The position numbers and the translations under genes are program-made. Below are positions 14,889-32,180 of a stretch of DNA of 32,180 nucleotides, in pieces; the stretch's first letter is position 1; every line of letters begins with the position of its first letter. The stretch is from Phycisphaerae bacterium (GTDB lineage Bacteria > Planctomycetota > Phycisphaerae > UBA1845). The stretch is from assembly GCA_023133475.1 (NCBI GenBank), contig JAGLWJ010000147.1, positions 1 to 32,180 of the forward strand, read 5' to 3'. Below the pieces are notes generated by a model. It was not told where the DNA came from, did not search any database, and worked only from the letters and a program-made list of their open reading frames with translations.

Positions 14889-15113
14889 GAGAATGGAGAA
14901 TGGAGAATGGAGAAGTGCGGTGATCACAACCGCGCCGGCGTGTTTAGCAGCGGCAAGTCCGTAGCGTTTAGCGGCTCCCCAACGGGGAGCGAGAAAAATG
15001 GAGCGTGAAAAACTGAGATAAACAGTTGTAGGGCGGGTTCCACCCGCCGTTGTGGCATCGTGCGGCGGGTAGAACCCGCCCTGCGTCCATTCTCAATTCT
15101 CAATTCTCCATTC
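14889..15113. repeat. Repeat composite with inverted GAGAATG / CATTCTC arms
   Basis: The left arm is three copies of GAGAATG plus a partial one (14889-14915); the right arm is the inverted form CATTCTC AATTCTC AATTCTC (15088-15113). Between them are a perfect hairpin GCTCCCCAACGGGGAGC (14974-14990) and a palindrome doublet of the GGCGGGTnnnACCCGCC type (15028-15048 and 15064-15084, in opposite orientation, each with a GTAG/CTGC end). No coding region is supported here. Confidence 0.8.
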
Positions 15114-15279: not shown

Positions 15280-15384
<105 letters not shown>

Positions 15385-16764: not shown

Positions 16765-16977
16765 CCGGGCGGCCCATCGCTTTAGCCGGGTGGCCCATCG
16801 CTTTAGCGGTGGGGGACACGAATGGTTCATTCAAGCACCGCCGAACCCCGTAGCAACCTGGACGATCAGATTCGTGTCCCCCACGGCTAAAGCCATGGGC
16901 CACCCAGTAGGGCGGGTTTTACCCGCCGTCCATGGCGTTACGTGTCACTTGCCGGCGGCGGGTGAAACCCGCCCTAC
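16765..16977. repeat. Two palindrome doublets of different families back to back
   Basis: The stretch 16736-17237 has no gene. First comes a GCTTTAGC doublet: a partial extra copy (16765-16786), hairpin A (16786-16823, ending GGGGGACACGAAT) and hairpin B inverted (16870-16905, starting ATTCGTGTCCCCC). One base later comes a GGCGGGT doublet: 16907-16927 and 16957-16977 in opposite orientation, with GTAG and CTAC ends. Outer and inner arms of each doublet are complementary, so the whole unit could fold into two hairpins or one long cruciform. Confidence 0.8.
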
Positions 16978-17237: not shown

Positions 17238-20200
17238 ATGAGACTTTCCTGGACAACAAGACCTACAGTATTGATCCTGGCGGTGAGTGGGCTGATGCTC
17301 ATCGGGCCATCCATCGCCTTCGCCGGCTCGATTGTTGCGTGGGGCAGGGACGGCGATGGTATAGGCAACGCCCGCAACCGGACCTATGTCGATGTCAACG
17401 CCATCGGAGCAAACGACGGTTCGAGCTGGACGGACGCTTACACCGATTTACAGGATGCCCTGGCCGTCGCAATGGCCGGCAATGAAATCTGGGTGGCGGC
17501 GGGAACGTACAAACCCGCCGGCGCCGCCGGCGACCGATATGCCACGTTCCAACTTATCAGCGGTGTACCCATCTACGGCGGATTCGCCGCCACCGAAACC
17601 CAGCGCGACCAGCGCGACTGGACTGCCAACGAAACCATCCTCAGCGGCGACCTCAACGGCGACGATTCGGGCTTTACCAATAACGGCGAGAACAGCCACC
17701 ACGTCGTGACAGGCAGCGGCACCAACTCGTCAGCCGTCCTCGACGGGTTCACCATCATCGGCGGAAATGCCAACGGCTCCGACCCGTACAGCGACGGCGG
17801 CGGGATGTATAGCTCCGGCGGCAGCCCAACGGTGAAAAACTGCACGTTCACCGGGAACACAGCCGGCTACGCTGGTGGCGGAATGTGCAACGACAACTCT
17901 AGTGCCCCGCTGATCACGAATTCCTCTTTCATCGGCAATTCAAGCGATACCCACGGCGCCGGAATGACAAACTACTACAACAGCAACCCAACGATGACCA
18001 ACTGCAAGTTCATAGGCAACTCATCGGGGTGGTCCGGCGGCGGGATATACAGTTTCCGCAGTAGCCCGACGCTTACCAACTGCCTCTTCAGCGGAAACAC
18101 GACCACCCATCGGGGGGGTGCTTTGAGCAACGACGACGGTGCCAATCTGATTGTGACCAACTCTACCTTCAGCGGCAATTCGGGCACTGGCGGGGCTGTC
18201 GGCAACTACTTGAACTGCCACCCGACGTTGCGTAACTGCGTTGTCTGGGGTAATACGGGGGGGGCATTCTACAACTATCCCAACAACTGCTCGGTTACCG
18301 CCACTTACAGCGATGTTCAGGATGGCTGGTCCGGATCCGGCAATATCAACTCGGACCCTCTGTTCGTGGACGCCGACGGTGCGGACGACATTCTCGGCAC
18401 GGCGGATGACAACGTGCGCCTGTCGGACAACTCACCCTGTATCGACACAGCCAACAATAGCAATGTGCCGGCGGATGTCGCCGATCTCGATGGCGACGGC
18501 GACACCAGCGAGCCGACTCCGCTGGATCTCGACGGCAATGCCCGCATTGTCATCGATATCGTGGATATGGGTGCGTATGAAGCCGGAGTCGGTGACACTG
18601 ACGGTGACGGCGTGCCCGATGACGACGACAATTGCCCGAACCACTACAACCCCGATCAGGCTGACTGTGACGGCAACGGCGTGGGCGACGTATGCGCCAT
18701 CGCAGCCGGAACCAGCCAGGACTGCAACAGCAACAGCATCCCCGACGAGTGCGACATCGCCGAGGGCACGTCGTCGGATTTCGACGGCAACAGCATCCCG
18801 GACGAATGCGAACAGGCTGCCGGTGAGCTGCTCTTGGTGGTGGCCTCTGGGTCAGATTGTGTCACCAGCGTCGAGCAGGTTACGGTGACGCTGGATGTCG
18901 CCAATCTCACCCGTGCCATCAACGGTGTGCAGGCTTTGATCCATTATAACACGAACTATCTCACGCCGGTCGGCATCACACCAGCCACCGGTTGGGTGTT
19001 GATCGTTCCCGGCGACCCCAACAACCCTGATTTGAACGGTGACGGCGATTTCACTTGTGCCCTGTACTTCCCGGGCGATGAGGTGTCTGCCGACGGCACG
19101 GTGGCTACGCTGGTGTTTGCTCCTGCGGCTGAAGGGCCTACCCAGGTGACTTTCCAGGATGACAGCGATCCATTCTTCACCAAGTTGACAGTGGCGGAGG
19201 ACAACACCACAATTCTCCCGTACAAGGTAGACTCGGGTACAATCAGCATCGACGACACCGTAGCCACCGCCGGCAGCAACAGCCCCGTCTGTGAAGGTGG
19301 GGCCATCAACCTGTCCGGCGGCCCGGACAGTGGGCCTGATTGGCCTTATACGTATGCGTGGGTTGGGACCAACGGCTTTAGCTCCGCCGAGCAGAATCCG
19401 ACTATCAGCGATGCCACACTGGACATGAACGGCATCTACACGCTGACGGTGACCAATGCCAGCGGGTGCGAGTTTGTTGCCCAGACCGTTGTTGAAGTCT
19501 ACCTGTGCATGGTGGTGAACGTCGAGATCGAAGGCTTGGTCGGTGACAGTGGCACATATGGTTCTCCGTCTAGTGGTGGCGAGCTTGATCGTGAAGTGAC
19601 CTTCGTATTCACGGATTGCGATGGTGATACCGACACGTACACCATCCCGGTTACCTTTACGGCTGACACGGGCAACAACAAGGGTGTCGGGAGTGCGACA
19701 TTTACAGGCCTCGATGCCGGTTTCGGGTGGCTCAGCGTTCAGGAAGGCCACACGCTGCGCGAATTGGTGGCGGTGGACTTTGTGACTACGTTGGCTGACA
19801 GCGTGACGGTGTTCCTGCCGTCGGGCGATTTCCACACGGCGGTGGTGCCGCAGGACAATATGGTGGACATCACTGATTTCTCGATACTGGCGTCCAGTTG
19901 GGAGACGGCTATCGAGGCTAATCAGGGCATCGGCGGCGACGCCACCGGTGACGGCTACCACGACGCCGACGACTTCGCGCTAATTCAGCCGAACTTCCTG
20001 ACGTTCGGCGAGGGGATTAACGGTTGTGGCAAACTGCTGAGCCATGCAGGGCGGGTTCTACCCGTCGCGTCCGAGGATGGCGTGATATTGCGGACTCCGC
20101 GAACCAGCATTGATGTATCGGAGTTGCGTTTGAGAGTGCCCGATGCCCAGCGTGCGGACCTCGACGGCAATGGTGTTGTTGACGCACGTGACATCCGCGC

Positions 20201-20324
20201 ATTCGCGAGACGGCACAACCTACTGTTGCTGCCGGTGTTTGAGGCCAAGTTATCCAAGTTGGAGGCGTCGGTTCCAACTCTTGAATCGACGGTCGATCCG
20301 GGTCTTGAGCCGCCACCGCGATGA
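17238..20324 (+). CDS. Secreted beta-helix, cohesin-like and dockerin-like multidomain protein
   Basis: 1028 residues, exported. Signal peptide about 1-29 (hydrophobic VLILAVSGLMLIGPSIAFA). Residues 30-41 (GSIVAWGRDGDG) look like the beginning of an RCC1 repeat. YVDVNAIGANDGSSW (50-64) opens a right-handed beta-helix to about 360, with repeats such as NCTFTGNTAG and NCKFIGNSSG. Next come Asp-rich calcium-type repeats (453-526: DTDGDGVPDDDDNCP, then two SIPDEC units), a cohesin-like beta domain (about 531-672), a PKD/Ig-like domain (about 677-755), an unassigned beta domain (757-870) and a dockerin-like pair (PQDNMVDITDFSILASSW and DATGDGYHDADDFALIQPNF, 871-920). A further DLDGNGVVDARDIRAFARRH follows at 974-993. 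A palindromic repeat (20046-20066) is read through in frame between the last two. AAGGA lies before the ATG. The role is probably adhesive or structural on the cell surface; no catalytic domain is recognised. Confidence 0.85.
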   Translation: MRLSWTTRPTVLILAVSGLMLIGPSIAFAGSIVAWGRDGDGIGNARNRTYVDVNAIGANDGSSWTDAYTDLQDALAVAMAGNEIWVAAGTYKPAGAAGDRYATFQLISGVPIYGGFAATETQRDQRDWTANETILSGDLNGDDSGFTNNGENSHHVVTGSGTNSSAVLDGFTIIGGNANGSDPYSDGGGMYSSGGSPTVKNCTFTGNTAGYAGGGMCNDNSSAPLITNSSFIGNSSDTHGAGMTNYYNSNPTMTNCKFIGNSSGWSGGGIYSFRSSPTLTNCLFSGNTTTHRGGALSNDDGANLIVTNSTFSGNSGTGGAVGNYLNCHPTLRNCVVWGNTGGAFYNYPNNCSVTATYSDVQDGWSGSGNINSDPLFVDADGADDILGTADDNVRLSDNSPCIDTANNSNVPADVADLDGDGDTSEPTPLDLDGNARIVIDIVDMGAYEAGVGDTDGDGVPDDDDNCPNHYNPDQADCDGNGVGDVCAIAAGTSQDCNSNSIPDECDIAEGTSSDFDGNSIPDECEQAAGELLLVVASGSDCVTSVEQVTVTLDVANLTRAINGVQALIHYNTNYLTPVGITPATGWVLIVPGDPNNPDLNGDGDFTCALYFPGDEVSADGTVATLVFAPAAEGPTQVTFQDDSDPFFTKLTVAEDNTTILPYKVDSGTISIDDTVATAGSNSPVCEGGAINLSGGPDSGPDWPYTYAWVGTNGFSSAEQNPTISDATLDMNGIYTLTVTNASGCEFVAQTVVEVYLCMVVNVEIEGLVGDSGTYGSPSSGGELDREVTFVFTDCDGDTDTYTIPVTFTADTGNNKGVGSATFTGLDAGFGWLSVQEGHTLRELVAVDFVTTLADSVTVFLPSGDFHTAVVPQDNMVDITDFSILASSWETAIEANQGIGGDATGDGYHDADDFALIQPNFLTFGEGINGCGKLLSHAGRVLPVASEDGVILRTPRTSIDVSELRLRVPDAQRADLDGNGVVDARDIRAFARRHNLLLLPVFEAKLSKLEASVPTLESTVDPGLEPPPR
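20046..20066 (+). repeat. GGCGGGT palindrome inside a coding region
   Basis: A copy of the GGGCGGGTTCTACCCGTC palindrome family, otherwise intergenic, lies in frame in the secreted protein gene and encodes about HAGRVLPVA (residues 936-944), between the dockerin-like pair and the C-terminal DLDGNG motif. Confidence 0.7.
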
Positions 20325-20430: not shown

Positions 20431-21840
20431 TTATGACTCTGACAGCGGTTTTGTAGGGTGCACCGCCAAAACCGAGCGCAATGCCTGGAGGCTCATTTTG
20501 ATGTCCTGCAGAGTGCGTAGGCGCATGAGCCGATGGAACAGATACCGCGGCCTCAGGTAAAACTCGCGGTACGCCACGCGATACATGCGGTTAACTTCGT
20601 CACCCGAAACGGTCGGCAGTTCCATTAGTGCGTTGGCTCCGTCATACTCACGCCAATCGCGGGTGCGCAGATACCCGTTGCGATTGGCCCACTCGAACAG
20701 TTGCGTTCCCGGGAACGGGACCGTGATATTGAACAGCACAATGTCCGGATCGAGCTTTTTGGCGAAGTCGATGGTGCGGCGCATGGTCTCTGCCGTCTCG
20801 CCGGGATTCCCAAGCATAAACGCCGCCCGCGCGGTTATGCCCACTTGCTGGGCTGTGCGAACCACCTCGCAGGCACGCCCCAAGTTGATCGGCTTGCGGA
20901 TGTTCTTCAGGATTCCCGGATCGGCTGACTCGATCCCGAACATGATCTGGTGGCACCCCGCCTTGTGCATCTTTTCCATCAGCGACCGGTTGATGCCGTC
21001 AATGCGGGCGAAGCAGGACCATGTCACGTCTATACCGCGTTCGACGATCAGATCGCACAGTTTGGCGACGTTGCGTTTGAAGATGGTGAACGTGTCGTCA
21101 TAGAAGTTGATCTCGCGGATACCATAACGGGCTTGGAGTTGTTCGATTTCGTTGACGATGTGCAGGGCTGACCGGGTGCGCAGTGGGGTTTGTGCCGAGC
21201 TACAGAAAGTGCACTTGCCGGGGCATCCCCGCGCGGTGGTCATTGCCAGGGCTGGAAGGCGCCGATATGCCCCGACCGCGGGTTTGTACAACTCGAAGCG
21301 GATCAGGTGATAAGCCGGCATTGGGAGAGAGTCGAGATCCTCAATGGGCGCACCGGGTGCGTTATGCCGGATCGGCCCGAGTGCGTTGTCGGATCGATAG
21401 GATAGGCCGGTGATCGATTCGATCGGCTCACCCTCTATTAGAGCCGCAAACGACTTCTCCCCTTCACCTCGGATGACGTAATCGATGTTGGCGTCCTCGA
21501 GCACCTCCTCCGGCAATGCGGTGGCGTGAGCACCACCCACAACGACCGTCGAGCCAGGCAATACGCTCTTCACGACAGCCGCCACACGGTGCACACTGCC
21601 GATCTGGATGGTAACACCAGTCAACCCGACGAACCGCGGCTGATGCTCACGGATGAACCGTTCGACCTGGTCGAGCGTGAGTTGTTCGGCGATGGCATCC
21701 AAAACCTGGACATCGTGCCCGCGGGCTTCGGCATAGGCGGCGACGGAGAGCAAGCCCAACGGCGGCCAGATGCCGTTGACGCCGTGCCAGATGGTGCCGT
21801 CGTGGGCGAGGTAGGGAGGTACGATGAGCAAGACATCCAT
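20431..21840 (-). CDS. B12-binding-type radical SAM protein
   Basis: 469 residues from ATG 21840, with AGGGA close upstream; a GTG start at 21861 is less likely. The N-terminal Rossmann-like half (1-150; LLIVPPYL, VVVGGAHATALPEEVLEDA, YVIRGEGEKSF) is typical of cobalamin-binding radical SAM proteins, although the DxHxxG cobalamin ligand motif is not seen. The radical SAM cluster motif is CPGKCTFC (Cys206, 210, 213), followed by INFYDDTFT, GIESADPGILKNIRKPINLG and MLGNPGETAETMRRTIDFAK. Members of this superfamily catalyse methylation at unactivated carbon, ring closure or other radical chemistry; the substrate is unknown. It is the last gene of the block, 17 bp after its neighbour, with which it shares the LKNIRK segment and the PGET region. 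Confidence 0.9.
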   Translation of the reverse strand: MDVLLIVPPYLAHDGTIWHGVNGIWPPLGLLSVAAYAEARGHDVQVLDAIAEQLTLDQVERFIREHQPRFVGLTGVTIQIGSVHRVAAVVKSVLPGSTVVVGGAHATALPEEVLEDANIDYVIRGEGEKSFAALIEGEPIESITGLSYRSDNALGPIRHNAPGAPIEDLDSLPMPAYHLIRFELYKPAVGAYRRLPALAMTTARGCPGKCTFCSSAQTPLRTRSALHIVNEIEQLQARYGIREINFYDDTFTIFKRNVAKLCDLIVERGIDVTWSCFARIDGINRSLMEKMHKAGCHQIMFGIESADPGILKNIRKPINLGRACEVVRTAQQVGITARAAFMLGNPGETAETMRRTIDFAKKLDPDIVLFNITVPFPGTQLFEWANRNGYLRTRDWREYDGANALMELPTVSGDEVNRMYRVAYREFYLRPRYLFHRLMRLRTLQDIKMSLQALRSVLAVHPTKPLSES

Positions 21841-21857
21841 GCGAATCCCTTTCCTGA

Positions 21858-23249
21858 TCACCAGCGTTTCCAGAACATGGCTGGTAGTGCCACCGACATC
21901 GTGTTGAGTCGGCTGAAAAAGTTCTCATACGGGTGACGTAAGCACTTCACTCCCCACTGCCAGGAAAGATAGAACGTGCGGTATGCGTGCTTGGCTGCCG
22001 CTCGGATTTCTCCGTTGCTGAAGTTCGGGTAGTCGGGTTCACCGTTCTCGGTCAACCAGCCGTCTGCCCTACATGCGGTGTGAAATGGCGTGCCCTCCAT
22101 GACGTTGGCGAGTTGGAACTGGACGGTGTCCGGGTTGAGCCGTTTGGCCCAGCGAATGGTTCGCTCAGCCGTTTGGGCTGTCTCGCCGGGGAACCCGATG
22201 GCGAAATCTGCATGGATTCGCAGGCCTGCACGCTTTGCGTTGGCCGTGAACTCCTCCATGGTCTTGATGCTGACCCCCTTACGGATGTTCTTGAGAATCT
22301 GCGGATCGCCTGATTCATACCCCACGTGCAGGTTGCGGCAGTTGGCTTTCTTCATGAGCTTCATCGTTTCGAGGCTGAGATTGCCGCGGGCGTAGCAGGA
22401 CCAGGGTATCTTGATCTTGCGGGCTGTTTTGAGGGCTGACAGCTCGGCGGCTCGCTCATCGGTGAGCGTATCATCCTGCACCATGACGGATCGCACCTCG
22501 GGCATGTCCTGTTCCACGCACCTGAGCTCTTCGAGAACGTTCTCGATGCTGCGAAGGTTGTAGGTCTTGCCTCGCACGAATGTGTGCACCCACAGGCAGA
22601 ACGTGCACTGCCCCCATGCGCACCCCCGACCGGTCATTAAATCAATGAACGGGTGGAATTCGGAGATGGTCTTGTAATTACGGATGTCAAGATGATTCCG
22701 AAAGAACCTGGTCACGAAGGGGAACTGATCAAGTTGTTCACCCGTGAGGTAGGGTCGTTGCGCATTGTGGGCAATCGTATCGCCATCCCGATACAACAGG
22801 TTCCGGATCGACGCGGGTTGGTTCCCCGCCGCCAGTTCCGCCAGCGCATAGTCAAACTCCCCTTCAACACCGTAGGCAACAGCGCGAGCCTGTCGCAGGG
22901 TTTCCTCCGGGCTCGAGGAGAACTGCGGGCCGACCAACACACTGATGCAGTCGAGCTTCTCGGTGAGGCGGTCGGCGATTTCGACATCGTTCGTGCGGCT
23001 TTTCTGCCCCGTGTAGACCACGAGCATGTCCGGCTGCCACTCGGTTACGATGCGTGTGGTGGCATCGTGGTCGAGATGGGACGATGGGGCGTCAACGAGT
23101 TTAACCTCGTGCCCGCAATGCTCAAGCCACGCCCCGGCGTACCCAAGCCAAAGGGGATACCACTGGGACGCCGACAGCGACACGAAGTCACAGCGGGCGT
23201 TGCGCATGTAATCCGGCAGATAGGGTGGGGAGAGAAGCAACACTCTCAT
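21858..23249 (-). CDS. B12-binding-type radical SAM protein with CX4CX2C motif
   Basis: 463 residues. The N-terminal domain (1-150; LLLSPPYLPDYMRNARCDF, GHEVKLVDAPSSHLD, GVEGEFDYALAEL) resembles the cobalamin-binding fold. The cluster motif reads RGCAWGQCTFCLW: Cys210, Cys215, Cys218, a CX4CX2C spacing instead of the canonical CX3CX2C. Downstream: VMVQDDTLTDERA, GYESGDPQILKNIRKGVSI, HADFAIGFPGETAQTAERTI. The C-terminus (SWQWGVKCLRHPYENFFSRL) resembles C-termini of radical SAM enzymes acting on lipids or glycans. It begins 16 bp after the methyltransferase gene stop and its stop lies 17 bp before the next radical SAM gene, so the genes are probably in one operon. Confidence 0.88.
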   Translation of the reverse strand: MRVLLLSPPYLPDYMRNARCDFVSLSASQWYPLWLGYAGAWLEHCGHEVKLVDAPSSHLDHDATTRIVTEWQPDMLVVYTGQKSRTNDVEIADRLTEKLDCISVLVGPQFSSSPEETLRQARAVAYGVEGEFDYALAELAAGNQPASIRNLLYRDGDTIAHNAQRPYLTGEQLDQFPFVTRFFRNHLDIRNYKTISEFHPFIDLMTGRGCAWGQCTFCLWVHTFVRGKTYNLRSIENVLEELRCVEQDMPEVRSVMVQDDTLTDERAAELSALKTARKIKIPWSCYARGNLSLETMKLMKKANCRNLHVGYESGDPQILKNIRKGVSIKTMEEFTANAKRAGLRIHADFAIGFPGETAQTAERTIRWAKRLNPDTVQFQLANVMEGTPFHTACRADGWLTENGEPDYPNFSNGEIRAAAKHAYRTFYLSWQWGVKCLRHPYENFFSRLNTMSVALPAMFWKRW

Positions 23250-23265
23250 AGACGTTCACCTGCTT

Positions 23266-23997
23266 TCAGTTCATCGCGTCCAATGGGGCGACGTGGGCTT
23301 CGATCACGTATCGAGTGGAAATCATCTTCAATGGGCCGCGGAGAACGTACCGATCCATGAGACCGAAGATGCGCTCCAAGAGCGGCGAATGCGAGAAAAA
23401 CCTTGTATTGTCCGGGCGCAGCCGGAACTGCGCAAACCCGCGAAATGCCCGCCTGAGCAGGCCCGGGCGGATTCGCAACAGCCCCCATTCGTCGCGATGA
23501 AACAGATTATAGGCCAACACCCAGGGTGACAGCATGGTAGTCTCAGCCGCCACGAAGCGACCACCGGGCATGAGCACCCGACGGATTTCCTCCGCCGCGG
23601 CGCCGATGTCCGGAACATGGTGGAGCACGTCGTAGGCAATGACCAAATCAAATGCACCGTCGGGAAATGGGAGTCGCTGCGCGTCCCCGTGCACCAATTC
23701 TGTGCCGAGGTTATAATCCTTGCTGAGCTGCTCAGCCCGGCGCAACATGGCCAGGCTCCGGTCCATGCCGACAAGTTGACCGACCATAGGGGCCAGGATC
23801 GGGTGATAGAGTCCCGTTCCGCAACCAAGGTCCAGCACCCGAGCCGGTCGACGTGGGCCGATGATCGACTCGAAGAATTCCCGGAATTTCTCGCGGGTCT
23901 GGGGATTTCGTTCCAGGATGGCTGGATCGAATCGGGACCAATACCGCCTTTCCTGTTCCGCGGCTGCCGGATCGTGGATTGTTTCGCCATATTGCAT
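23266..23997 (-). CDS. Class I SAM-dependent methyltransferase
   Basis: 243 residues from ATG 23997 (MQYGETIHDPAAAEQERRYW). The open frame runs further upstream but would overlap the preceding radical SAM gene, and the added sequence is not methyltransferase-like. Motif I is VLDLGCGTGLYHPI (54-67); GMDRSLAML follows the second strand (78-86), GDAQRLPFPDGAFDLVIAYD covers motifs II-III (104-123) and VLMPGGRFVAAE the post-motif (141-152). This pattern is of the UbiE/methyltransferase-11 type. The substrate is unknown. 5 bp separate it from the upstream SPASM gene. Confidence 0.9.
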   Translation of the reverse strand: MQYGETIHDPAAAEQERRYWSRFDPAILERNPQTREKFREFFESIIGPRRPARVLDLGCGTGLYHPILAPMVGQLVGMDRSLAMLRRAEQLSKDYNLGTELVHGDAQRLPFPDGAFDLVIAYDVLHHVPDIGAAAEEIRRVLMPGGRFVAAETTMLSPWVLAYNLFHRDEWGLLRIRPGLLRRAFRGFAQFRLRPDNTRFFSHSPLLERIFGLMDRYVLRGPLKMISTRYVIEAHVAPLDAMN

Positions 23998-24002
23998 CTT
24001 GT

Positions 24003-25097
24003 TTATTCCATGAACCGGATGTGGCGGTTGACTCTTTCGACGATCCCGCTGTGTTTCTTTTGCGTCAGGCTTGGCACAAGCACGGAGACCGCCATGGGGA
24101 GCTTCCCGGGCTGGAACGTGTTGCAGTTCCGGCAGAACGGCTCCTCCAGGCTGCGACCCGCCAGATGCGACCTGCGGACCTCCCGGATTCGAGGCGAATT
24201 CCACAACTCCTTCGCGGTTGCCTCTTGCATATTGCCAAACGACTTATCCGCCGCCCCGTAGCAACACGGGACAAACGACCCATCCGACTGAATCAGCGGT
24301 GTGCCACGCCAAAGAAACAAACAAGGCTGCTTACTCGCCCGCTTGCGTTGCCCGGGGAAGGCCAGGGATTCGTCAAACTGAAGTTCATCCTTCTTGACGC
24401 GCACGGCGTCTACACCGGGGATGCTCCACATCCGGCGGAATGCTTGAACCTGGCTTCGAGTGTCGCTCAGCTCGAGCATTTGGAGGATAAGCCATGGTTT
24501 CCCGAGGCTGCGTTCCACCTTCCGCGCGGCGAACCGCCGCACATTGTTGAAAACCCGGTCGAAGTCCGCTCCGACGCGAATCTTTTCGTAGGTCTCCTTG
24601 TCCGCTCCGTCGAACGAAACGACGAGCACATCGAGCCGGCTGTCGAGCAGGTGCTCTTGCCACTTGTCCGTGAGAAACGTGCCGTTGGTGGATGCCCCGG
24701 TCGCAATTCCCGCCTCGTGACACTCGGCGATCATCCGCATGAAGTGCTTGTTCATCATCGGTTCACCCAGGCCGGCTAACCAGATGAATGAGGCTGTCTC
24801 CCGGATACGATCCAGCGCCCGGTGGAACGTTGTCAGATCCATGTCACTGTTGCCCAGAGTGGTGCTGATCCGGCGTGGGCACATCGGGCACGAAAGATTG
24901 CAGCGGCTACTCACTTCGATGACGTACTCGAAGGGAACACCGCGAGCCTCCAAACGTGGTTGAAACACATCGTGCAACACTTTCAGGCGATGGTTGATGG
25001 TGCTGCCGAGGTGCCTGCCCGAGGTCGCTACCACCTCACGCCGACCCGCTGCAAGGGGGCCAATTGAAAAAGCAACATCTGTCTGTCTCCCGCTCAT
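24003..25097 (-). CDS. Radical SAM protein with SPASM domain
   Basis: 364 residues from ATG 25097. The radical SAM cluster motif is CNLSCPMC (Cys66, 70, 73) in EVSSRCNLSCPMCPRR; LAGLGEPMMNKHF and STNGTFLT follow, then VVSFDGADKETYEKIR. The C-terminal SPASM region has Cys259, Cys278, Cys279, Cys322 and Cys325 with GNMQEATAKELWNSP, enough for at least one auxiliary Fe-S cluster. SPASM enzymes act on peptides, sugars or lipid-linked substrates. No small precursor-peptide gene was found beside it, which argues mildly against RiPP maturation. It starts just after a repeat array (25134-25248) and runs into the methyltransferase gene 5 bp away. Confidence 0.92.
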   Translation of the reverse strand: MSGRQTDVAFSIGPLAAGRREVVATSGRHLGSTINHRLKVLHDVFQPRLEARGVPFEYVIEVSSRCNLSCPMCPRRISTTLGNSDMDLTTFHRALDRIRETASFIWLAGLGEPMMNKHFMRMIAECHEAGIATGASTNGTFLTDKWQEHLLDSRLDVLVVSFDGADKETYEKIRVGADFDRVFNNVRRFAARKVERSLGKPWLILQMLELSDTRSQVQAFRRMWSIPGVDAVRVKKDELQFDESLAFPGQRKRASKQPCLFLWRGTPLIQSDGSFVPCCYGAADKSFGNMQEATAKELWNSPRIREVRRSHLAGRSLEEPFCRNCNTFQPGKLPMAVSVLVPSLTQKKHSGIVERVNRHIRFME

Positions 25098-25133
25098 TGT
25101 GTTCTGATCATCCAGTTACCGGCGAAACCTCCT

Positions 25134-25248
25134 GTAGGGCGGGTTCTACCCGCCTTCTCGGCGTCCCGCGGCAGGTGGAACCCACCCTACGACGGTGTGG
25201 CGGGTGGAACCCGCCCTACGATGGCGTGGCGGGTGGAACCCGCCCTAC
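25134..25248. repeat. Array of GGCGGGT palindromes with 29-bp period
   Basis: Four palindromes: 25134-25154 (GTAG...ACCCGCC orientation), then 25170-25190, 25199-25219 and 25228-25248 in the opposite orientation (GGCGGGTGGAACCCGCC and CTAC). The last three start exactly 29 bp apart. The second copy is diverged (GGCAGGTGGAACCCACC). Copies three and four also contain the C-terminal codons and stop of the upstream methyltransferase gene. Confidence 0.85.
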
Positions 25249-26070
25249 GACGCCACGCGGCCGGGCTTCGAAAACGATCATCTGCTCCACGCATAGCCAA
25301 GACCAATCGCAGCACTCGTCAATCCATGCCAGCAAGCCGGAGATTTTCCGTTCCAAGGGATCACGCAATCCCTTCGACAGGAAATACTGAACCACGTTCA
25401 GCGCTACCACCGACAAGAAAAAAGGCGCCGACGCGACATTCCGACGGCGCGATACTTCTAACCCGTGACTCCGGAGAACTTCCAGGTCCCTTCGCCCTCC
25501 GAAGGGGATTTCGTTGCGGGTGGCTGAGCTGGAATACAATGGCCGACGGGTTACGATGCGGATCAGCTCCTTGCCCCAAATGCACATCCTCAGTAACAGC
25601 CCGGATACCAACGTGCCGTTGCGGTCAAAGCAGCAGAGCTTTCCGCCAACTCGGAGAACGCGACGGATTTCACCAATCGCTTCGGGCAACCGTCCCTGGA
25701 CAGCCAAGTGGTGAAACAATCCGTCGGCTATCACCACATCGAATGAATCCGTGTGGAAGGGCAGGTCTCCAGCCTCGGCACAACGCACGTAGCCCTCAAG
25801 CCCGTGCTGTCGGATCGCCGCTTCGATCATGGCTGGGGAGAAATCGACCCCCACCGCATCGACGCCCAAGGCCCGCAACCCCGCAACCGTCCCTCCCACT
25901 CCGCAACCTAAGTCGAGGACCCTTTGGCCCGGGCGGAGAGCATAGAACGATGCCCGCCGGCTCGCCAAAACACGCATCAGCGGCGAACGCTCGTCACTCC
26001 GGTAAAACGCCGCGTTGCGGTCCCAGTCTTCCCGTTCCATGCTCAGGATTTCATCCGGAGTCCTGTCCAT
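25216..26070 (-). CDS. Class I SAM-dependent methyltransferase
   Basis: 284 residues from ATG 26070 (MDRTPDEILSMEREDWDRNA); the frame is open further upstream but that part lies within the preceding gene. Motif I VLDLGCGVGG (51-60), GVDFSPAMIEAAI (74-86), EAGDLPFHTDSFDVVIADGL (99-118) and RRVLRVGGKLCCFDR (136-150) are methyltransferase-11 type. The C-terminal half has hydrophobic stretches (LVSGLLLRMCIWGKELIRIV and APFFLSVVALNVVQYFLS), suggesting membrane contact and a lipid or lipid-linked substrate. Its start overlaps the previous stop (TGATG). The last residues, GRVPPATPS, and the TAG stop come from the palindrome array, so the original C-terminus may have been replaced. Confidence 0.88.
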   Translation of the reverse strand: MDRTPDEILSMEREDWDRNAAFYRSDERSPLMRVLASRRASFYALRPGQRVLDLGCGVGGTVAGLRALGVDAVGVDFSPAMIEAAIRQHGLEGYVRCAEAGDLPFHTDSFDVVIADGLFHHLAVQGRLPEAIGEIRRVLRVGGKLCCFDRNGTLVSGLLLRMCIWGKELIRIVTRRPLYSSSATRNEIPFGGRRDLEVLRSHGLEVSRRRNVASAPFFLSVVALNVVQYFLSKGLRDPLERKISGLLAWIDECCDWSWLCVEQMIVFEARPRGVVGRVPPATPS

Positions 26071-27125
26071 CACCGCAACATCTTCAAATATGCCTTGGGG
26101 TGCATCAGGTTGCTGTTGGCTTGAAAGCACGAATGAGTGCAGTGGCATTTCTTGGCTCGGATTGCCCGGCGTAGCCGCTCAGCCTTGGGCGAACACCACG
26201 CGGCGCGGAATCCGTCTTCGAGCACGTTTCCGACCGGAGGCAGCAGTTCGCACAGCAGCACATCACCCTTGTAGTCCACCACACCCATTCCCACCCCGCC
26301 GACACAGTCAAATACCTGACGTTCCGTATCGAGGACCTGGAGACACTCATCGAAGAGATTGGCCTTCATGCGCTTGGCCAACCAGGATTTGACCCGTGAC
26401 TCGGGGAGGTATCGGTCGTTCGCCAAGACCATCCGCCGATGCACACGCCCGAACGACTGTAGCTCCTCCAGCGGCGGCAACATGTCGCAATACTCGCTGG
26501 GGCCGCCACGCACCAGCTCGAAATTGTGGGCGGAGATGCCCGGCATATTCCCCTTTACCCAGTCGATGAGCCGAGGCAGGTCTTTAACGTTGTCCCGCAT
26601 AATCGTAGTGGTCGCCTGGATACGAAAGCTCGAGCACTTCGCTTGCAACCGCACAAGCCGTGCATACGTTTGCAGGAGCTTGTCGAACCCACCCTTGACA
26701 CCTCGGATGGCATCGTGGCATTGCCGGGTCCCATCGAGGGAGAGCGATATCATCAGATCGAAGGAGCATGTATCGAGAATCTCCTCGACCACGGCGGCGA
26801 TGCGATCGACCAGTAAGCCGTTGGTCGGAATGGTGACGTTACTTACGTGGTTGTTGCGGTCGAAAACGCGGCATATCTCGACCAGGCCCTTCCTCAGAAA
26901 CGGCTCCCCTCCACCAAGATACAACTGGCACAGTTCGGTGAGTTCGCGGCTTAGGCATTCGTAGTTTTCCAGTGTCATGATGTCCGGCGTCTGGTTCAGC
27001 TCGTCGGCGAAGAAGCAATGCGTGCACCGCGCGTTGCAGCGCGAGGTGACCAGCAGGATCAATGTCAGCGGCGTATCCACGGTGCGATGAAGCAGGCTGT
27101 GCTTGATGTATGGGGCGAGTTTCAA
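26070..27125 (-). CDS. Radical SAM protein with SPASM-like C-terminus
   Basis: I place the start at TTG 27125, which overlaps the stop of the glycosyltransferase gene (TTGA) and has AAGGAG eight bases upstream; a GTG at 27173 would overlap that gene by 52 bp. 351 residues. The cluster motif is CNARCTHC (Cys30, 34, 37); LYLGGGEPFLRKGL (68-81), IPTNGLLVD and SLSLDGTRQCHDAIRG follow. C-terminal Cys274, 292, 311, 327, 329 and 333 with GMGVVDYKGDVLLCE and KCHCTHSCF suggest an auxiliary Fe-S cluster of the SPASM/twitch kind. Related enzymes are often encoded beside glycosyltransferases; the substrate is unknown. Confidence 0.9.
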   Translation of the reverse strand: MKLAPYIKHSLLHRTVDTPLTLILLVTSRCNARCTHCFFADELNQTPDIMTLENYECLSRELTELCQLYLGGGEPFLRKGLVEICRVFDRNNHVSNVTIPTNGLLVDRIAAVVEEILDTCSFDLMISLSLDGTRQCHDAIRGVKGGFDKLLQTYARLVRLQAKCSSFRIQATTTIMRDNVKDLPRLIDWVKGNMPGISAHNFELVRGGPSEYCDMLPPLEELQSFGRVHRRMVLANDRYLPESRVKSWLAKRMKANLFDECLQVLDTERQVFDCVGGVGMGVVDYKGDVLLCELLPPVGNVLEDGFRAAWCSPKAERLRRAIRAKKCHCTHSCFQANSNLMHPKAYLKMLR

Positions 27126-28066
27126 CCGTTTCGCTCCTTCCGCCGGAGATATCGGAAGGTGGCCCAGCACCACACCAGCTTGTCACAGAAGATGAAGGGC
27201 AAATAGCAGGGTATGGGCTTTTCTCGCCACGTGTGCAACCAGATTTTCATGGTTATCGCAGTGGCGATGGCCGGTGCCAAAAACAGGTAGAAGTAGGGAT
27301 TGGACGAGGCAAACCGCCCGTAGGTCGAATGTCGGCGGTGAGTCAAGTGCGCATCGACCTCACCGCGCAAACCCCATGCGTAAGCGCGACCGAGGGTGGA
27401 ACGTAGTGTGGCCCGCCCGTGGTTGTGGTGCACGATGCACTCCGGGCGGAATAGGGTTTTGAACCCTTTCGCCTGCATGCGTAAACCGAGGTCCTCGTCC
27501 TCGCCTGTTTTGATGGACTCGTCAAAACCACCCAACTCCTCGAACAACGATCTTCGGATACCGAAAGCACAACCGCAGGCGAACGTGCGCTCGGCGGCTT
27601 TGCTTTGCATCGACGGGTAGTACCGCGCGTAGTCGTGGCAACGGGCGAAGAAACGGCTCGAACCTCCGACGATCCGGGCAGCCACTTCGCCGGCTTCGGG
27701 ATGCTTCTCGAAAACCGCCACGGTCCGCTCGATCCAGTTCCGGTCCACCTCACAGTCGTCGTCCACGAACAGCAGATAGTCGCCGCCGGCTATCGAAGCC
27801 CCAAGGTTTCGGGTGGCTGCCGCGCTGGATCGGTCGTGCCGAACGTGTTTGATTGGGGCCGTCGCATCTCTACGGGTTTCGTCGATGATGGTTTTCGTCT
27901 GGTCGTCTCCGCCATCCTGGGCAACGATGACATCGAATGCGCCCGCCGGGTAAGCTTGGGCCGCCAACGTCTTCAGTAGGCACCGCAGGCCTTCGGGGCG
28001 ATCGTGTGTCGGCACCACGACGCTCACTCGGGGATAATCAGTGTGACAATGTTTCACGGTTGTCAT
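27122..28066 (-). CDS. GT2-family glycosyltransferase
   Basis: 314 residues from ATG 28066 (MTTVKHCHTDYPRVSVVVPT). GT-A fold: VSVVVPTHDRPEGLRCLLKT (14-33), VIVAQDGGDD (46-55), metal-binding VDDDCEVD (101-108, DXD region), GIRRSLFEELGGFDE (169-183) and the acidic GEDEDLGLRM (188-197). A hydrophobic C-terminal segment (FYLFLAPAIATAITMKIWL, about 259-277) and a basic tail suggest attachment to the inner face of the membrane. It transfers a sugar from a nucleotide donor to an unknown acceptor. The reading frame is open upstream into repeats but that part is not protein-like. Its first 15 codons are duplicated upstream (28176-28283). Confidence 0.92.
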   Translation of the reverse strand: MTTVKHCHTDYPRVSVVVPTHDRPEGLRCLLKTLAAQAYPAGAFDVIVAQDGGDDQTKTIIDETRRDATAPIKHVRHDRSSAAATRNLGASIAGGDYLLFVDDDCEVDRNWIERTVAVFEKHPEAGEVAARIVGGSSRFFARCHDYARYYPSMQSKAAERTFACGCAFGIRRSLFEELGGFDESIKTGEDEDLGLRMQAKGFKTLFRPECIVHHNHGRATLRSTLGRAYAWGLRGEVDAHLTHRRHSTYGRFASSNPYFYLFLAPAIATAITMKIWLHTWREKPIPCYLPFIFCDKLVWCWATFRYLRRKERNG

Positions 28067-28456
28067 TGCCTGGTTTGGGTGCCCCATCCCGTTTCGCCGG
28101 CCCGAAGGGCCGGCGAACGGGGTGGGGGACGGGCCAGGTGCTTTTTTGTTGGACAAGGCACTTTCTCCGTTTGAGTCAGTCCCCCACCCCGTCCGGATGC
28201 CTGCTACGCAGGTATCCGGAACGGGGTGGGGCACCCATACTCACTCGGGGATAATCAGTGTGACAATGTTTCACGGTTGTCATTGCCTGGTCTGGGTGCC
28301 CCATCCCGTTTCGCCAGCCCGAAGGGCCGGCGAACGGGGTGGGGGACGGGCCAGGTGCTTTTTTGTTGGACAAGGCACTTTCTCCGTTTGAGTCAGTCCC
28401 CCACCCCGTCCGGATGCCTGCTGCGCAGGTATCCGGAACGGGGTGGGGCACCCATC
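28023..28456. repeat. 217-bp tandem duplication of a palindrome doublet and gene start
   Basis: Copy 1 is 28023-28239 and copy 2 is 28240-28456, with about three differences (for example 28075 against 28292). Each unit has hairpin 1 (28077-28130; 28294-28347, centre GCCGGCCCGAAGGGCCGGC), a spacer containing CTTTTTTGTTGG, and hairpin 2 (28179-28237; 28396-28454, centre CCGGATGCCTGC and GCAGGTATCCGG). Both hairpins have CCCCACCCCGT-like arms in inverted orientation. The unit also includes the first 15 codons of the glycosyltransferase gene. The stretch 28067-28465 has no other feature. Confidence 0.92.
28176..28283 (-). pseudogene. Duplicated 5' fragment of the GT2 gene
   Basis: The second copy of the 217-bp unit repeats the ATG and first 15 codons of the glycosyltransferase gene (MTTVKHCHTDYPRVS), then reads into the palindrome and stops after 35 residues. 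It is probably a non-functional by-product of the duplication, although it could be translated as a short decoy or leader peptide in the message. Confidence 0.75.
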
Positions 28457-28465
28457 ACTCATGGG

Positions 28466-30100
28466 CTAGGCCCGGCATTTATGCCGGGTGAAACGGAGGG
28501 TTCGCAAGAATGCCCTCAACCCGCGCACTCGCCGGGCCAAACCGTGGGCAATCAACATCTCGAGGTTCGTCTTCGGCTTGTTGCACAGCACCGCCACCAC
28601 TCGTTGACACATGTGCCACGGTCGCAAGGGATAGTAAGCGGCGAAGAACAACAGATACGCGATAACAACAAACCACCGAACCTGGCAGTCACTCCAACGC
28701 GAGTGCCGGCTCTGTCTGTGGCAACGAATATTCGCGAAAGTGCGATCCAGACCCAGGAAGTATTCGTCGCTGTACTCGATGAGACCGCGCTCCAGGTAGC
28801 GGCGGTGGTACTCGGAGCCGGGATAACACGTAAACCTGCTACAAGTGACCGTATCATACCGGGCAAGGGCCAGCCTGATGATGAACACGTAGGTCTGGAG
28901 CAAGTCGCGGAAACTCTCTTGGGGGCTGCCAATGATTATGTAGGCGTTGAGGGTCAAGTCGATGTGATTGCGGCGAACAATCCTTCCGAGTTCGAGGAAC
29001 TGGGCAGGGTCAGCCTGCTTCCGCATCGATGCCAATACCCGCTTTGAACCGCTTTCCGGAGCGAAGGTCAGCGATCGGCAGCCGCCGGCGCTGAGTTTGG
29101 CGAACAACTTTTCATCAAAGGTTTCGCTACGTGTGCCGCTGGGGAGTGTCCAGGTGATCCCCAGGTCTCGCGAGCATATCTCGTCAGCCACACGCATTAT
29201 CCAGCGGTGGCTGACCCCGAAGGTGAGGTCTTGAAACTGGAACTCGGTGGCGCCGTAGCGATCCATGTAGAATTCCATTTCATCGACGATGTCTTGAGGG
29301 CTGCGCATGTAGAAACGCGTAGTCCACATCTGCGCACTGGAGCAGAATCGGCAGCGATAAGGGCATCCGCGCGTCCCCAGCATCGTCATCACACGTCGAT
29401 CGCTATGGTCGTGGGCGCGCTTGGCTTTCATATAGTTCTGAATGGGAAACAGGTCCCAAGCCGGCCATGGAATCGAATCCAGATCGCGGCGGCGTTGCCG
29501 GGCGGGGTTGCGAATAAAGGGCGACGGATGCTTCGTTTGCGATGGCGCGTTCATTCCGTCATCCTTGCCGGTCTCGGTTTGGGATACGTTTCGGTTCGAG
29601 CGATAGGCCAATCCGGCAATGCCCTGGAGCTTCTTTTCCCCCGGTCGAGCCAACGTGTCCAGTAACTCGATCAGGGTGTCCTCGCCCTCGCCAATGACAG
29701 CGTAGTCAATCGGCGCGCTCTCGAAGACGTGCGCCGTCGCGGCGGTCACGTGCTCACCGCCAACCACAATGGGCGTCGAAGGGAACGCTTCTCGCAGGGC
29801 AGCCAATAACCGTCGGGCCAACGGCCACTGGACGGAAAACATCGCGCTTAGCCCAATAACATCGGTTTGAGGATCGACGCGTTGCACGATCTCCTTGATC
29901 GACAACCCGTTGATATGGCATCCCCGAATGAACGGGTGAAAGGAGTGCAACGCTTCGCCTAAGCCGTCGATAACGGTAACCTTGTGCCCCGCGCTGCGAA
30001 CACTGGCAGCCAGATAGGCAATACCTATAGGAGGAACCTGAGGGTACTGCCAATTCCTGTCCGCAACGGTCATCGGTGGTGATATCAGACAGAGATTCAT
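28466..30100 (-). CDS. B12-binding-type radical SAM protein with membrane tail
   Basis: 544 residues from ATG 30100 (MNLCLISPPMTVADRNWQYP). The N-terminal domain (1-160) has GHKVTVIDGLGEAL, VVGGEHVTAATAHVFESA and YAVIGEGEDTLIELL, typical of cobalamin-binding radical SAM proteins, but no DxHxxG. The cluster motif is CPYRCRFC (Cys246, 250, 253). Then come FQFQDLTFGV, FAPESGSKRVLASMRKQADP and the IIIGSPQES region. After about residue 460 there is an extra tail with a hydrophobic segment (WFVVIAYLLFFAAYYPL) and a basic end, suggesting a membrane-associated substrate. The Ser/Thr/Lys-rich segment at 170-205 is a likely linker. It follows the GT39-like gene by 6 bp. Confidence 0.9.
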   Translation of the reverse strand: MNLCLISPPMTVADRNWQYPQVPPIGIAYLAASVRSAGHKVTVIDGLGEALHSFHPFIRGCHINGLSIKEIVQRVDPQTDVIGLSAMFSVQWPLARRLLAALREAFPSTPIVVGGEHVTAATAHVFESAPIDYAVIGEGEDTLIELLDTLARPGEKKLQGIAGLAYRSNRNVSQTETGKDDGMNAPSQTKHPSPFIRNPARQRRRDLDSIPWPAWDLFPIQNYMKAKRAHDHSDRRVMTMLGTRGCPYRCRFCSSAQMWTTRFYMRSPQDIVDEMEFYMDRYGATEFQFQDLTFGVSHRWIMRVADEICSRDLGITWTLPSGTRSETFDEKLFAKLSAGGCRSLTFAPESGSKRVLASMRKQADPAQFLELGRIVRRNHIDLTLNAYIIIGSPQESFRDLLQTYVFIIRLALARYDTVTCSRFTCYPGSEYHRRYLERGLIEYSDEYFLGLDRTFANIRCHRQSRHSRWSDCQVRWFVVIAYLLFFAAYYPLRPWHMCQRVVAVLCNKPKTNLEMLIAHGLARRVRGLRAFLRTLRFTRHKCRA

Positions 30101-30106
30101 GTGATC

Positions 30107-31672
30107 CTATTCCCCCGGCATACCCCGTGCGGGTGCCCCGGCGAGCACGGGGTTCTTCTCCGACCGCTCGATCAGGTAGGTGGCTACATCGTTAAAACGA
30201 TACTCATCGCGAATGTGATAGTGCTCTTTAATATGTTCCATCCATGGGCCTGTTTCAGCCGGCCGGCGGAGCATGAACACGAACCACACTCGCGGATGTT
30301 CCGCGATCCACGCATCGAAGCGATCGGTGAACAATGCGAGGTTGTCGCGGCTTTCCCACGGCTGCAACCGAACCGGGTGGCCTGTGTCTTGCCAATAGAA
30401 CCCGTAGGCATATCGGGTTTCGTAGTGGATGAAGATGGCATCATCTGGTTCAAGATGTTCCACCGTGTACTCAAACACGGGGCGCAGGTGCTCCTGCGGT
30501 GGCGGAGCGAATAGCGTGCTCTTGACCGCCCGGGCTCCGGGAATCCCAACGCACACCACTACCAGCATCACCATCGCCGGGGACACGCTCAGCTTGCTCG
30601 CGAGGTGACGCAGGCCGCAGCCGAGCGAGACGCACACGAGTGGAACCAGAAACGTCATCGTGTGGAAGCACCCGTAAGGCCATAGCTTCATCGACCCCGC
30701 CAGCACCGTGAACGCCAAAATGCATAGGGTGGCGATGCAGAAAGAACGCATTCTCCGCCATAATGGAGGAAGGGACGCGGCGGCGAGCACGAGTTCGAAT
30801 CCGCCGATGAGCGTGTCCAAGGGCGCCCAAACCCCACCAACACCCAAAACATATCGCAGCATCCCATGGCTCTTTATCACAAACCACTTCGCCAATGCTG
30901 CTATGTCGTAGTCGACAGGCCATGCCCCACCACAAACACCGTATTGGTGCGATGCTCCGTCACGGTTGTACGCTCCTGAAAACCAGAGAAACGCAAGTGC
31001 GGCGACCAGCGCTACAACCACAGCCACTCCGGATACTTGAATGAGCCTGTGGAGACGCTCGGTGCGGCCCTTTAACGCCGCGTATCCCAGCAGCATCGCC
31101 CACGAAGCCGCCACCAGCGACCCCGTGTAAGTCAGACTGATGCTCAGAATGGCGCATAATAAGAATCCCAGCAATCGGCGTCGCGACAACGTTCGGCACG
31201 CCTCGAAACCCGCCCAGGTCACCACCACGCACATCAGGGCTTCGATGCTGAATTCCTTAACTATCCTGGAGAGGGCCACCAACTCCGGATGGCAGGCCGC
31301 CACGGCAGCCACACAGATCCCTGACCAGGTGTCGGCGCACTTCCGCACAAACAGGAACAGCACCACAACACACGCGAATCCTGCCGCGGCGCTCGGCAGA
31401 CGCATCGCGAATTCGCTTCTGCCGAAAGCGTGCCGCACAGCCCACAGGATGGAGTACTGAAGCGGTGGAAACCAGCGCATCTCGTCCAGCGATGCCGACC
31501 AGGCGGCACTGGCACGACCAGCCTCATCGTGCCTCAAGCTAGTGTCACCCAGGTGTGCCGCGCGAACCACAAACGCGAACACTACGATCAACGCCAGCGC
31601 CCAGCACCAATGTCGCACGCGAGAGTGGATCAGGGCCTCCGGCAAACTGTTGCTGGAAAGCGTTCTAGTCAT
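30107..31672 (-). CDS. GT39-like integral membrane glycosyltransferase
   Basis: 521 residues from ATG 31672. Multi-spanning: a first membrane segment (WCWALALIVVFAFVVRAAHL, about 22-41) is followed by an outside loop with the conserved acidic pair in SLRHDEAGRA (45-54, HDE at 48-50), as in GT39/GT83 lipid-linked-sugar transferases such as ArnT and PMT. About ten hydrophobic segments follow to residue 400, then a soluble C-terminal domain (VFEYTVEHLEPDDAIFIHYE and onward). Such enzymes use a polyprenyl-phosphate sugar donor on the periplasmic face. It appears to be the first gene of the radical SAM block. Acceptor and donor are unknown. No convincing promoter was found upstream. Confidence 0.85.
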   Translation of the reverse strand: MTRTLSSNSLPEALIHSRVRHWCWALALIVVFAFVVRAAHLGDTSLRHDEAGRASAAWSASLDEMRWFPPLQYSILWAVRHAFGRSEFAMRLPSAAAGFACVVVLFLFVRKCADTWSGICVAAVAACHPELVALSRIVKEFSIEALMCVVVTWAGFEACRTLSRRRLLGFLLCAILSISLTYTGSLVAASWAMLLGYAALKGRTERLHRLIQVSGVAVVVALVAALAFLWFSGAYNRDGASHQYGVCGGAWPVDYDIAALAKWFVIKSHGMLRYVLGVGGVWAPLDTLIGGFELVLAAASLPPLWRRMRSFCIATLCILAFTVLAGSMKLWPYGCFHTMTFLVPLVCVSLGCGLRHLASKLSVSPAMVMLVVVCVGIPGARAVKSTLFAPPPQEHLRPVFEYTVEHLEPDDAIFIHYETRYAYGFYWQDTGHPVRLQPWESRDNLALFTDRFDAWIAEHPRVWFVFMLRRPAETGPWMEHIKEHYHIRDEYRFNDVATYLIERSEKNPVLAGAPARGMPGE

Positions 31673-31799: not shown

Positions 31800-32180
31800 T
31801 TAAGCCATCTCGAGTCTCCCGACCGATGGTATTGAAGCCGGGATTTCGCCGGCACTGCCGTCCCGGTCTTCCTGGCCCTTGCCTTTGTCCCTCTGCCCTT
31901 CGCCGGCCAACCGAGCGTAACAACTCGTTTGCCGGAAAAACGGATAAGTCAGAGCCGTGGCGATGAGAATCACCATCATGTAGCAATAGGCCAGCACGAC
32001 GCTCGCGAAGTTGTATCGCCCTCCCCCCGGCGGCAACTCGACAGACAACGTGGCCTTGCGCGTTGCCAGCACCCCCACCATCAACACCGCCGCGCTCAGC
32101 AAAACCACATCTACCTGCCCAAGGTTTATCAGGGTGACACCGGATACAAGCCAAATCAGCGTTCCCCACGGAAGCAGAAA
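31800..32180 (-). CDS. Membrane protein of unknown function, C-terminal part (cut by window edge)
   Basis: The frame is open from base 32180 down to a stop at 31800, so 126 residues are visible and the start lies outside. Three hydrophobic segments are seen: LIWLVSGVTLINL, VVLLSAAVLMVGVLA and VVLAYCYMMVILIATALTYP. The first loop contains TLSVELPPGGGRYNFAS. The tail of about 35 residues is charged and low in complexity (EGQRDKGKGQEDRDG), encoded by G/A-rich repetitive DNA that may be repeat-derived. No family was recognised. It is on the same strand as the radical SAM block, 127 bp upstream of the GT39-like gene, and could be part of it. Confidence 0.6.
   Translation of the reverse strand, partial: FLLPWGTLIWLVSGVTLINLGQVDVVLLSAAVLMVGVLATRKATLSVELPPGGGRYNFASVVLAYCYMMVILIATALTYPFFRQTSCYARLAGEGQRDKGKGQEDRDGSAGEIPASIPSVGRLEMA

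Follow-up and report, generated by a model that had tools for sequence, protein, structure and literature searches.

What does a run of radical S-adenosylmethionine (SAM) genes in a Phycisphaerae bacterium make, and does it belong to a known pathway? The run lies at positions 20431 to 31672 of contig JAGLWJ010000147.1, and the window analysed here is that whole contig, 32,180 nucleotides of a fragmented genome (G000; 753 contigs, 84% complete). A sequence-only reading had described nine genes on one strand, encoding five radical SAM enzymes, two methyltransferases and two glycosyltransferases, with a lipid or lipid-linked glycan as the suggested substrate. We found that one of these genes, H, represents an unnamed family that is distinct from, and sister to, HpnJ of the hopanoid pathway. 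What is conserved is not the nine-gene block but a smaller module, centred on H and on GT2*, a family 2 glycosyltransferase that is membrane-bound. By a narrow balance of the evidence, we read the block as part of a biosynthetic cluster, cut off by the contig end, whose product is a modified lipid-linked sugar (a glycolipid head group or a polyprenyl-linked glycan) and which is built on this cross-phylum module. A literature search found no description of such a module or of such a planctomycete cluster.

Gene content of the block

All nine open reading frames (ORFs), named A to I in the order of transcription, were present on the minus strand as described. The block is longer than nine genes, and it comprises at least ten because the ORF at the contig end is the C-terminus of GT2*. 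The right contig end cuts the block at 32180, which is why GT2* had been missed. The Pfam assignments used here are those above each model's own cut-off.

31800..32180, minus strand: GT2*, C-terminal fragment of a membrane-bound family 2 glycosyltransferase (GT2), cut by the contig end
30107..31672, minus strand: A, PMT_2/GT39-like polytopic (GT-C type) glycosyltransferase, 521 amino acids; PMT_2 35.8 bits, cut-off 26.1
28466..30100, minus strand: B, B12-binding radical SAM protein with a hydrophobic C-terminal tail, 544 amino acids, motif CX3CX2C; Pfam B12-binding and Radical_SAM
28023..28455: tandem duplication of 216 nt (two copies, 99%) in the B-C interval, just upstream of C; it contains the start given for C on the ORF list
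27122..28234, minus strand: C, a second GT2, EpsD/MftF-like; Glycos_transf_2 95.5 bits; likely true start at about 28066
26070..27173, minus strand: D, radical SAM/SPASM protein; Pfam Radical_SAM and SPASM; likely start TTG at 27125
25216..26148, minus strand: E, class I SAM methyltransferase; Methyltransf_11; likely start ATG at 26070
24003..25097, minus strand: F, radical SAM/SPASM protein; Pfam Radical_SAM and SPASM
23266..24204, minus strand: G, class I SAM methyltransferase; Methyltransf_11 97 bits; likely start ATG at 23997
21858..23249, minus strand: H, HpnJ-sister B12-type radical SAM protein with CX4CX2C, the anchor of the module; Pfam B12-binding and Radical_SAM
20431..21861, minus strand: I, B12-binding radical SAM protein by Pfam; 4-bp overlap with H

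The enzyme classes named by the sequence-only reading were borne out. PF02310 and PF04055 were both above cut-off in H, I and B, which by domain content are predicted B12-binding-domain radical SAM enzymes, and PF04055 and PF13186 were above cut-off in D and F (28.7 and 45.6 bits, respectively, vs 21.5). The two methyltransferases (E and G), the GT2 (C) and the GT39-like protein (A) passed the cut-offs of Methyltransf_11, Glycos_transf_2 and PMT_2. By profile search, 5 of the genome's 30 Radical_SAM matches fall inside these 11.2 kb, where random placement expects 0.07 (Poisson P ~1.5e-8, a figure that ignores the clustering of related genes). Among the matches listed, no NCBIfam family was above its cut-off for any of the nine proteins; TIGR04072, the B12 radical SAM family of ladderane clusters with a cut-off of 360 bits, gave 88 bits for H, 139 for I and 105 for B.

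H belongs to a sister family of HpnJ

HpnI adds N-acetylglucosamine to bacteriohopanetetrol, HpnK deacetylates the product, and HpnJ forms the cyclitol ether (PMC12583986). H resembles HpnJ over its full length and scored 343 bits to TIGR03471, below the curated cut-off of 577.6; HpnJ copies in the phylum of G414 scored 704-805 bits. In a tree made with IQ-TREE, the H clade (support 100/100) was sister to the HpnJ clade (100/100), with 92/79 at the sister node. The cluster motif of the H family is CX4CX2C (CxWGxCxxC or similar), and that of the HpnJ copies in the tree is CX3CX2C. At L024, L115 and L116 there is a CC at the first motif position, which is compatible with either spacing. Residues Y14-D21 (YMRNARCD) were invariant across the 16-sequence H alignment.

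An AlphaFold model of H had a predicted local distance difference test (pLDDT) score of 86 and a predicted template modelling score (pTM) of 0.88. Its low-confidence parts are residues 12-25 and the cluster loop 213-224, which may become ordered around ligands. A Foldseek search with this model ranked MgmA and AprD4 first. AprD4 had the highest template modelling (TM) score among solved structures (0.72-0.75), its structure holds the aminosugar paromamine, and a sequence comparison of H with the PDB likewise placed it first, at ~20% identity. The structure model of A (pLDDT 45.5) was too poor for use.

A third HpnJ-like clade, apparently unnamed, was seen at L063 and L064 (G431 and G458) in the phylum of G414. 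It carries the motif CFAHCTFC and the N-terminus DDFVRSARW, and it branches outside HpnJ and H in the tree.

A module around H and GT2* in several phyla

Orthologues of H with 70-74% identity were found in 4 of 60 relatives, and GT2* in three, all of them H-positive (hypergeometric 1.2e-4). A scan of bacterial and archaeal genomes identified 15 clear H relatives (44-74% identity), whose metagenome-assembled genomes (MAGs) are labelled Planctomycetota, Gammaproteobacteria, Nitrospinota, Myxococcales, Acidobacteriota, Elusimicrobia, Omnitrophota and, once, Woesearchaeota. A search of the phylum with an H alignment added four more planctomycete genomes (G586, G670, G692 and G774). Together with the window these make 20 H loci, several of the others being on contigs too short to show partner genes.

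GT2* was co-located with H at 12 of the 20 loci (the window, L018, L019, L020, L021, L028, L029, L030, L031, L110, L113 and L115). An HpnA-like epimerase was present at ten (L021, L023, L024, L028-L031, L110, L113 and L116); against HpnA, the L030 copy scored 189 bits and the L031 copy 177 bits. A recurring methyltransferase group was represented at 11 (L019, L021, L024, L026, L028-L031, L110, L113 and L115). These four core genes occurred together at seven loci spanning five phyla (L021, L028, L029, L030, L031, L110 and L113). SPASM radical SAM proteins and PMT_2-type GT-C proteins often accompany H as well, and other H loci have Wzz, a flippase, an LPG_synthase_TM protein or fatty acid desaturases as neighbours. 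The homologues therefore co-occur and are not scattered.

The contig-end fragment in the window showed 52.6% identity over 116 amino acids (1e-29) to the GT2 in the block of G032, and scored 100.6 bits against a hidden Markov model (HMM) built from the GT2* proteins of other H loci. Full-length relatives of GT2* have GT2 domains, and their likenesses in the PDB are the membrane GT2 6yv7 and ceramide glucosyltransferase.

The same nine-gene order, which the sequence-only reading had proposed to look for in other planctomycetes, was not found elsewhere. The nearest arrangement is in G032, a second Phycisphaerae genome, where B-GT2*-A-E-F-H lie on one strand with 45-70% identity for the shared genes: A 45-48%, B 60-61%, E 50% and F 67-68%. 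The G032 copy is the single clear orthologue of B, other relatives being more distant. For F, a search of 397 class genomes at E <= 1e-60 gave matches in G000 and G032 alone. In G007, H is adjoined by relatives of C, D and E (31% identity for D and 34% for E). G is the window's best match to the recurring methyltransferase group, yet a weak one (78 bits vs 250-390 for members).

A compact six-gene version was found in two near-complete planctomycete genomes with a local guanine-plus-cytosine (GC) content of 41-42%, G692 (L110) and G774 (L113). It is one same-strand run of a GT-C protein, a SPASM radical SAM protein, the epimerase (of the short-chain dehydrogenase/reductase type), the methyltransferase, H and GT2*. 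The GT-C protein of the G774 run was checked as PMT_2, and PMT_2 proteins adjoin H in both G774 and G586. The window has the same classes except for the epimerase, which may sit beyond the contig end.

The hopanoid pathway

One reading of these likenesses is a divergent hopanoid pathway, in which H is an HpnJ orthologue and GT2* the equivalent of HpnI. The similarity to HpnJ over its full length and the HpnA-like epimerases fit it, and squalene-hopene cyclase (PF13249) was strong in two carriers, both Nitrospinota (G411 and G412). However, PF13249 had no match in G000 or in G023 (97% complete) and only weak fragments of 20-22 bits in G032, G007 and G031, with an intermediate match in G413, and HpnK (TIGR03473) was above its cut-off in none of 16 H-bearing genomes. 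Because most H-bearing genomes lack both squalene-hopene cyclase and an HpnK above cut-off, the module does not appear to be part of the hopanoid pathway. H also scores too low for the HpnJ model and branches apart from the HpnJ clade, and GT2* prefers PgaC over HpnI. We thus set this pathway aside; its divergent form is highly improbable and already largely refuted. The earlier statement that no characterised pathway matches the full set holds.

Proposed function of the block

A lipid or lipid-linked glycan is still the best reading of the substrate, as first suggested. It is supported by the hopanoid precedent, in which a membrane lipid is glycosylated by HpnI and its sugar is remodelled by HpnJ, H being HpnJ-like over its full length in a clade sister to HpnJ. 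It is also supported by the recurrence of H with GT2*, which resembles a membrane GT2 structure, and with the HpnA-like epimerase and the methyltransferase. Moreover, AprD4, the structure with the best TM-score for H, acts on an aminosugar; I adjoins nucleotide-sugar genes in relatives; and Wzz, flippase, LPG_synthase_TM and fatty acid desaturases neighbour H elsewhere. A sugar-modifying role of the H module is moderately supported by this context.

We infer the chemistry and product of the block as follows. GT2* would transfer a sugar to a membrane lipid or to polyprenyl phosphate at the cytoplasmic face. H would make a 5'-deoxyadenosyl radical, abstract a hydrogen from the sugar ring, and then either rearrange the sugar (an HpnJ-like contraction to a cyclitol) or dehydrate a diol as AprD4 does. 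The SPASM and B12 radical SAM proteins D, F, B and I and the methyltransferases E and G might add C-, O- or N-modifications, and C might add a further sugar. A, the PMT_2 protein, would transfer a sugar from a polyprenyl-phosphate donor at the outer face, and would move or extend the glycan. Ring contraction as such is a guess, and we regard it as doubtful. A wider proposal seems unlikely as it stands. In it, the H family would contract the ring of the sugar that heads a non-hopanoid membrane lipid, or rebuild this sugar in another way, so that Planctomycetota and several other phyla would have carbocyclic-headed glycolipids.

Several points weigh against a lipid-linked sugar remodelled by H. 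The reaction of H may differ from that of HpnJ, because H is far below the HpnJ cut-off and has a different cluster motif. GT2* scored 88 bits to PgaC and 41 bits to HpnI. Neither the window nor the part of G032 that was read showed an epimerase of the recurring group, and accessory genes vary between H loci. The group HMMs for GT2*, the epimerase and the methyltransferase were trained on members, G692, G774 and G586 being out of sample; in these, GT2* scored 417-429 and the methyltransferase 235-256 bits, and the epimerase 309-310 bits in G692 and G774. Most of the genomes that carry H are MAGs, and some of their contigs may have been assigned to the wrong bin. Finally, H might methylate, since CX4CX2C is also the motif of the B12 radical SAM methyltransferase GenD1.

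Methylation instead of sugar remodelling is the main rival, and we consider it rather unlikely. Most cobalamin-dependent radical SAM enzymes methylate (PMC13142503), and GenD1 does so on an aminosugar (PMC4340712). A methylated glycan would also suit G023, where Wzz, a flippase and a family 1 glycosyltransferase (GT1) lie near H, and the nucleotide-sugar genes next to I in relatives. On the other hand, HpnJ, the nearest family, and AprD4, the structure with the best TM-score, are both non-methylating, and the block in the window has no polymerase, flippase or ligase. A polymerase and a flippase would be expected in an O-antigen or exopolysaccharide cluster; their absence here refers to a block that is itself truncated. 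Furthermore, the most constant partner of H is a membrane GT2, accompanied by HpnA-like and PMT_2 proteins. Remodelling of a lipid-linked sugar remains our preferred reading.

Clusters for ribosomally synthesized and post-translationally modified peptides (RiPPs) often contain SPASM and B12 radical SAM proteins. The block could make a RiPP or another small secondary metabolite, a peptide being modified by the SPASM enzymes and glycosylated or methylated by the others, and there was sub-threshold similarity to RiPP maturases. No model reached its RiPP cut-off, though, and the ORF lists, in which small ORFs were not searched exhaustively, showed no recognisable precursor inside the block or close to it. 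The partners that recur are membrane glycosyltransferases and sugar epimerases. We judge such a product very improbable.

Junctions, gene I and flanking sequence

The sequence-only reading had described mostly tight spacing, and this was true of part of the block. The junctions C-D, D-E, F-G, G-H and H-I are tight; the TTGA at 27122-27125 is the C/D overlap and fits the alternative start of D at 27125, and the TGATG at 26070 is the D/E junction and fits the alternative start of E at 26070. However, GT2* and A are separated by 127 bp, B and C by 231 bp according to the ORF list (~400 bp if C begins at its likely start), and E and F by 118 bp. Because these three gaps hold the 216-nt duplication and palindromes, the block may be transcribed as two or three units. 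Scans for promoters and terminators did not exceed chance expectation.

Two palindromic repeats were observed in the window. An intergenic element with the core TGGCCCANNGCTTTAGC lies at 15283, 16791, 16886 and 31711; the core occurs at least 200 times on each strand genome-wide, and the reversed control pattern 0 times. It looks like a very abundant repetitive extragenic palindromic (REP) element or miniature inverted-repeat transposable element (MITE). The second, GTAGGGCGGGTTNNACCCGCC, lies at 15028-15084, 16907-16977, 20046-20066 and 25134-25248, the last including the E-F gap; allowing up to 3 mismatches it had 12 matches, where 0.03 are expected.

The family of gene I was found in 16 of 60 relatives. 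It is spread through them independently of H, so the link of I to the rest of the block is weaker, and I may be a mere neighbour. In G033 the order is Gfo/Idh, hexapeptide transferase, GT2, I and DegT aminotransferase, and G013 and G026 are similar. I lies ~5 kb from purD in G033, and in the window it is likewise near purD. These observations and the gaps of 118-400 bp with repeats would suit a loose aggregate, in which a GT2*-A-B-E-F-H module has been joined by the unrelated genes C, D, G and I and there is no one common product. Against this, the block is on one strand with five tight junctions, and the relatives of C, D and E next to H in G007 argue for a connection of these genes with the module. 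We consider an aggregate improbable.

Between purD and the block, on the opposite strand, lies a predicted secreted, repeat-rich protein of 1028 amino acids (17238-20324) with no Pfam or PHROG match. No phage families were found for this protein, A or the contig-end ORF. A recent foreign insertion of the block was considered and rejected, since GC content is even across the window; a comparison of the purD flank in relatives was uninformative because the same-genus contigs end there.

Comparison with known systems

Whether the system is undescribed has a divided answer: no known pathway matches it, but it has a clear mechanistic analogue in the sugar head-group remodelling of the HpnI/HpnJ type. 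Three other systems share features with H. In Sulfolobales, calditol synthase (Cds) carries out a radical SAM ring contraction of lipid-bound glucose to a cyclopentyl head group (PMC9385802). The likeness to the role proposed for H is the remodelling of a lipid-bound hexose, by description and not by sequence, and calditol synthase differs in working on archaeal tetraether lipids. AprD4 of apramycin biosynthesis is a radical SAM diol dehydratase acting on paromamine (PMC5461906). It is like H in predicted structure, and its own solved structure has an aminosugar bound; the differences are its soluble aminoglycoside substrate, the low sequence identity and its work with the reductase AprD3. GenD1, of gentamicin biosynthesis, is likened to H by description, as a B12-type enzyme with the same motif, and not by sequence; its substrate, too, is a soluble aminoglycoside.

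The H family, with its shifted motif and its tie to a membrane glycosyltransferase in several phyla, mostly where hopanoid genes are lacking, would open another setting for the study of cobalamin-type radical SAM chemistry. HpnJ itself is one of the few enzymes of this type thought to be non-methylating, and the role of cobalamin there is speculative (PMC13142503). The module predicts an unseen glycolipid or glycan, and its six-gene version in G692 and G774 is a convenient starting point for experiments.

The closest comparison is the HpnI-HpnK-HpnJ branch leading to bacteriohopanetetrol cyclitol ether. The block differs in that H forms a separate clade with CX4CX2C, in the lack of HpnK above cut-off, in carriers mostly without squalene-hopene cyclase, and in its additional SPASM, B12 radical SAM and PMT_2 genes. 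Shared are a membrane GT2, an HpnJ-type radical SAM protein, an HpnA-like epimerase near several loci, and the scheme by which a lipid is first glycosylated and its sugar remodelled afterwards. The system thus resembles the HpnI-HpnJ pair in outline, yet it is outside the hopanoid pathway. Carbocyclic-headed glycolipids, if H does make them, would form a class comparable to the calditol lipids and the hopanoid cyclitol ethers, on a different lipid.

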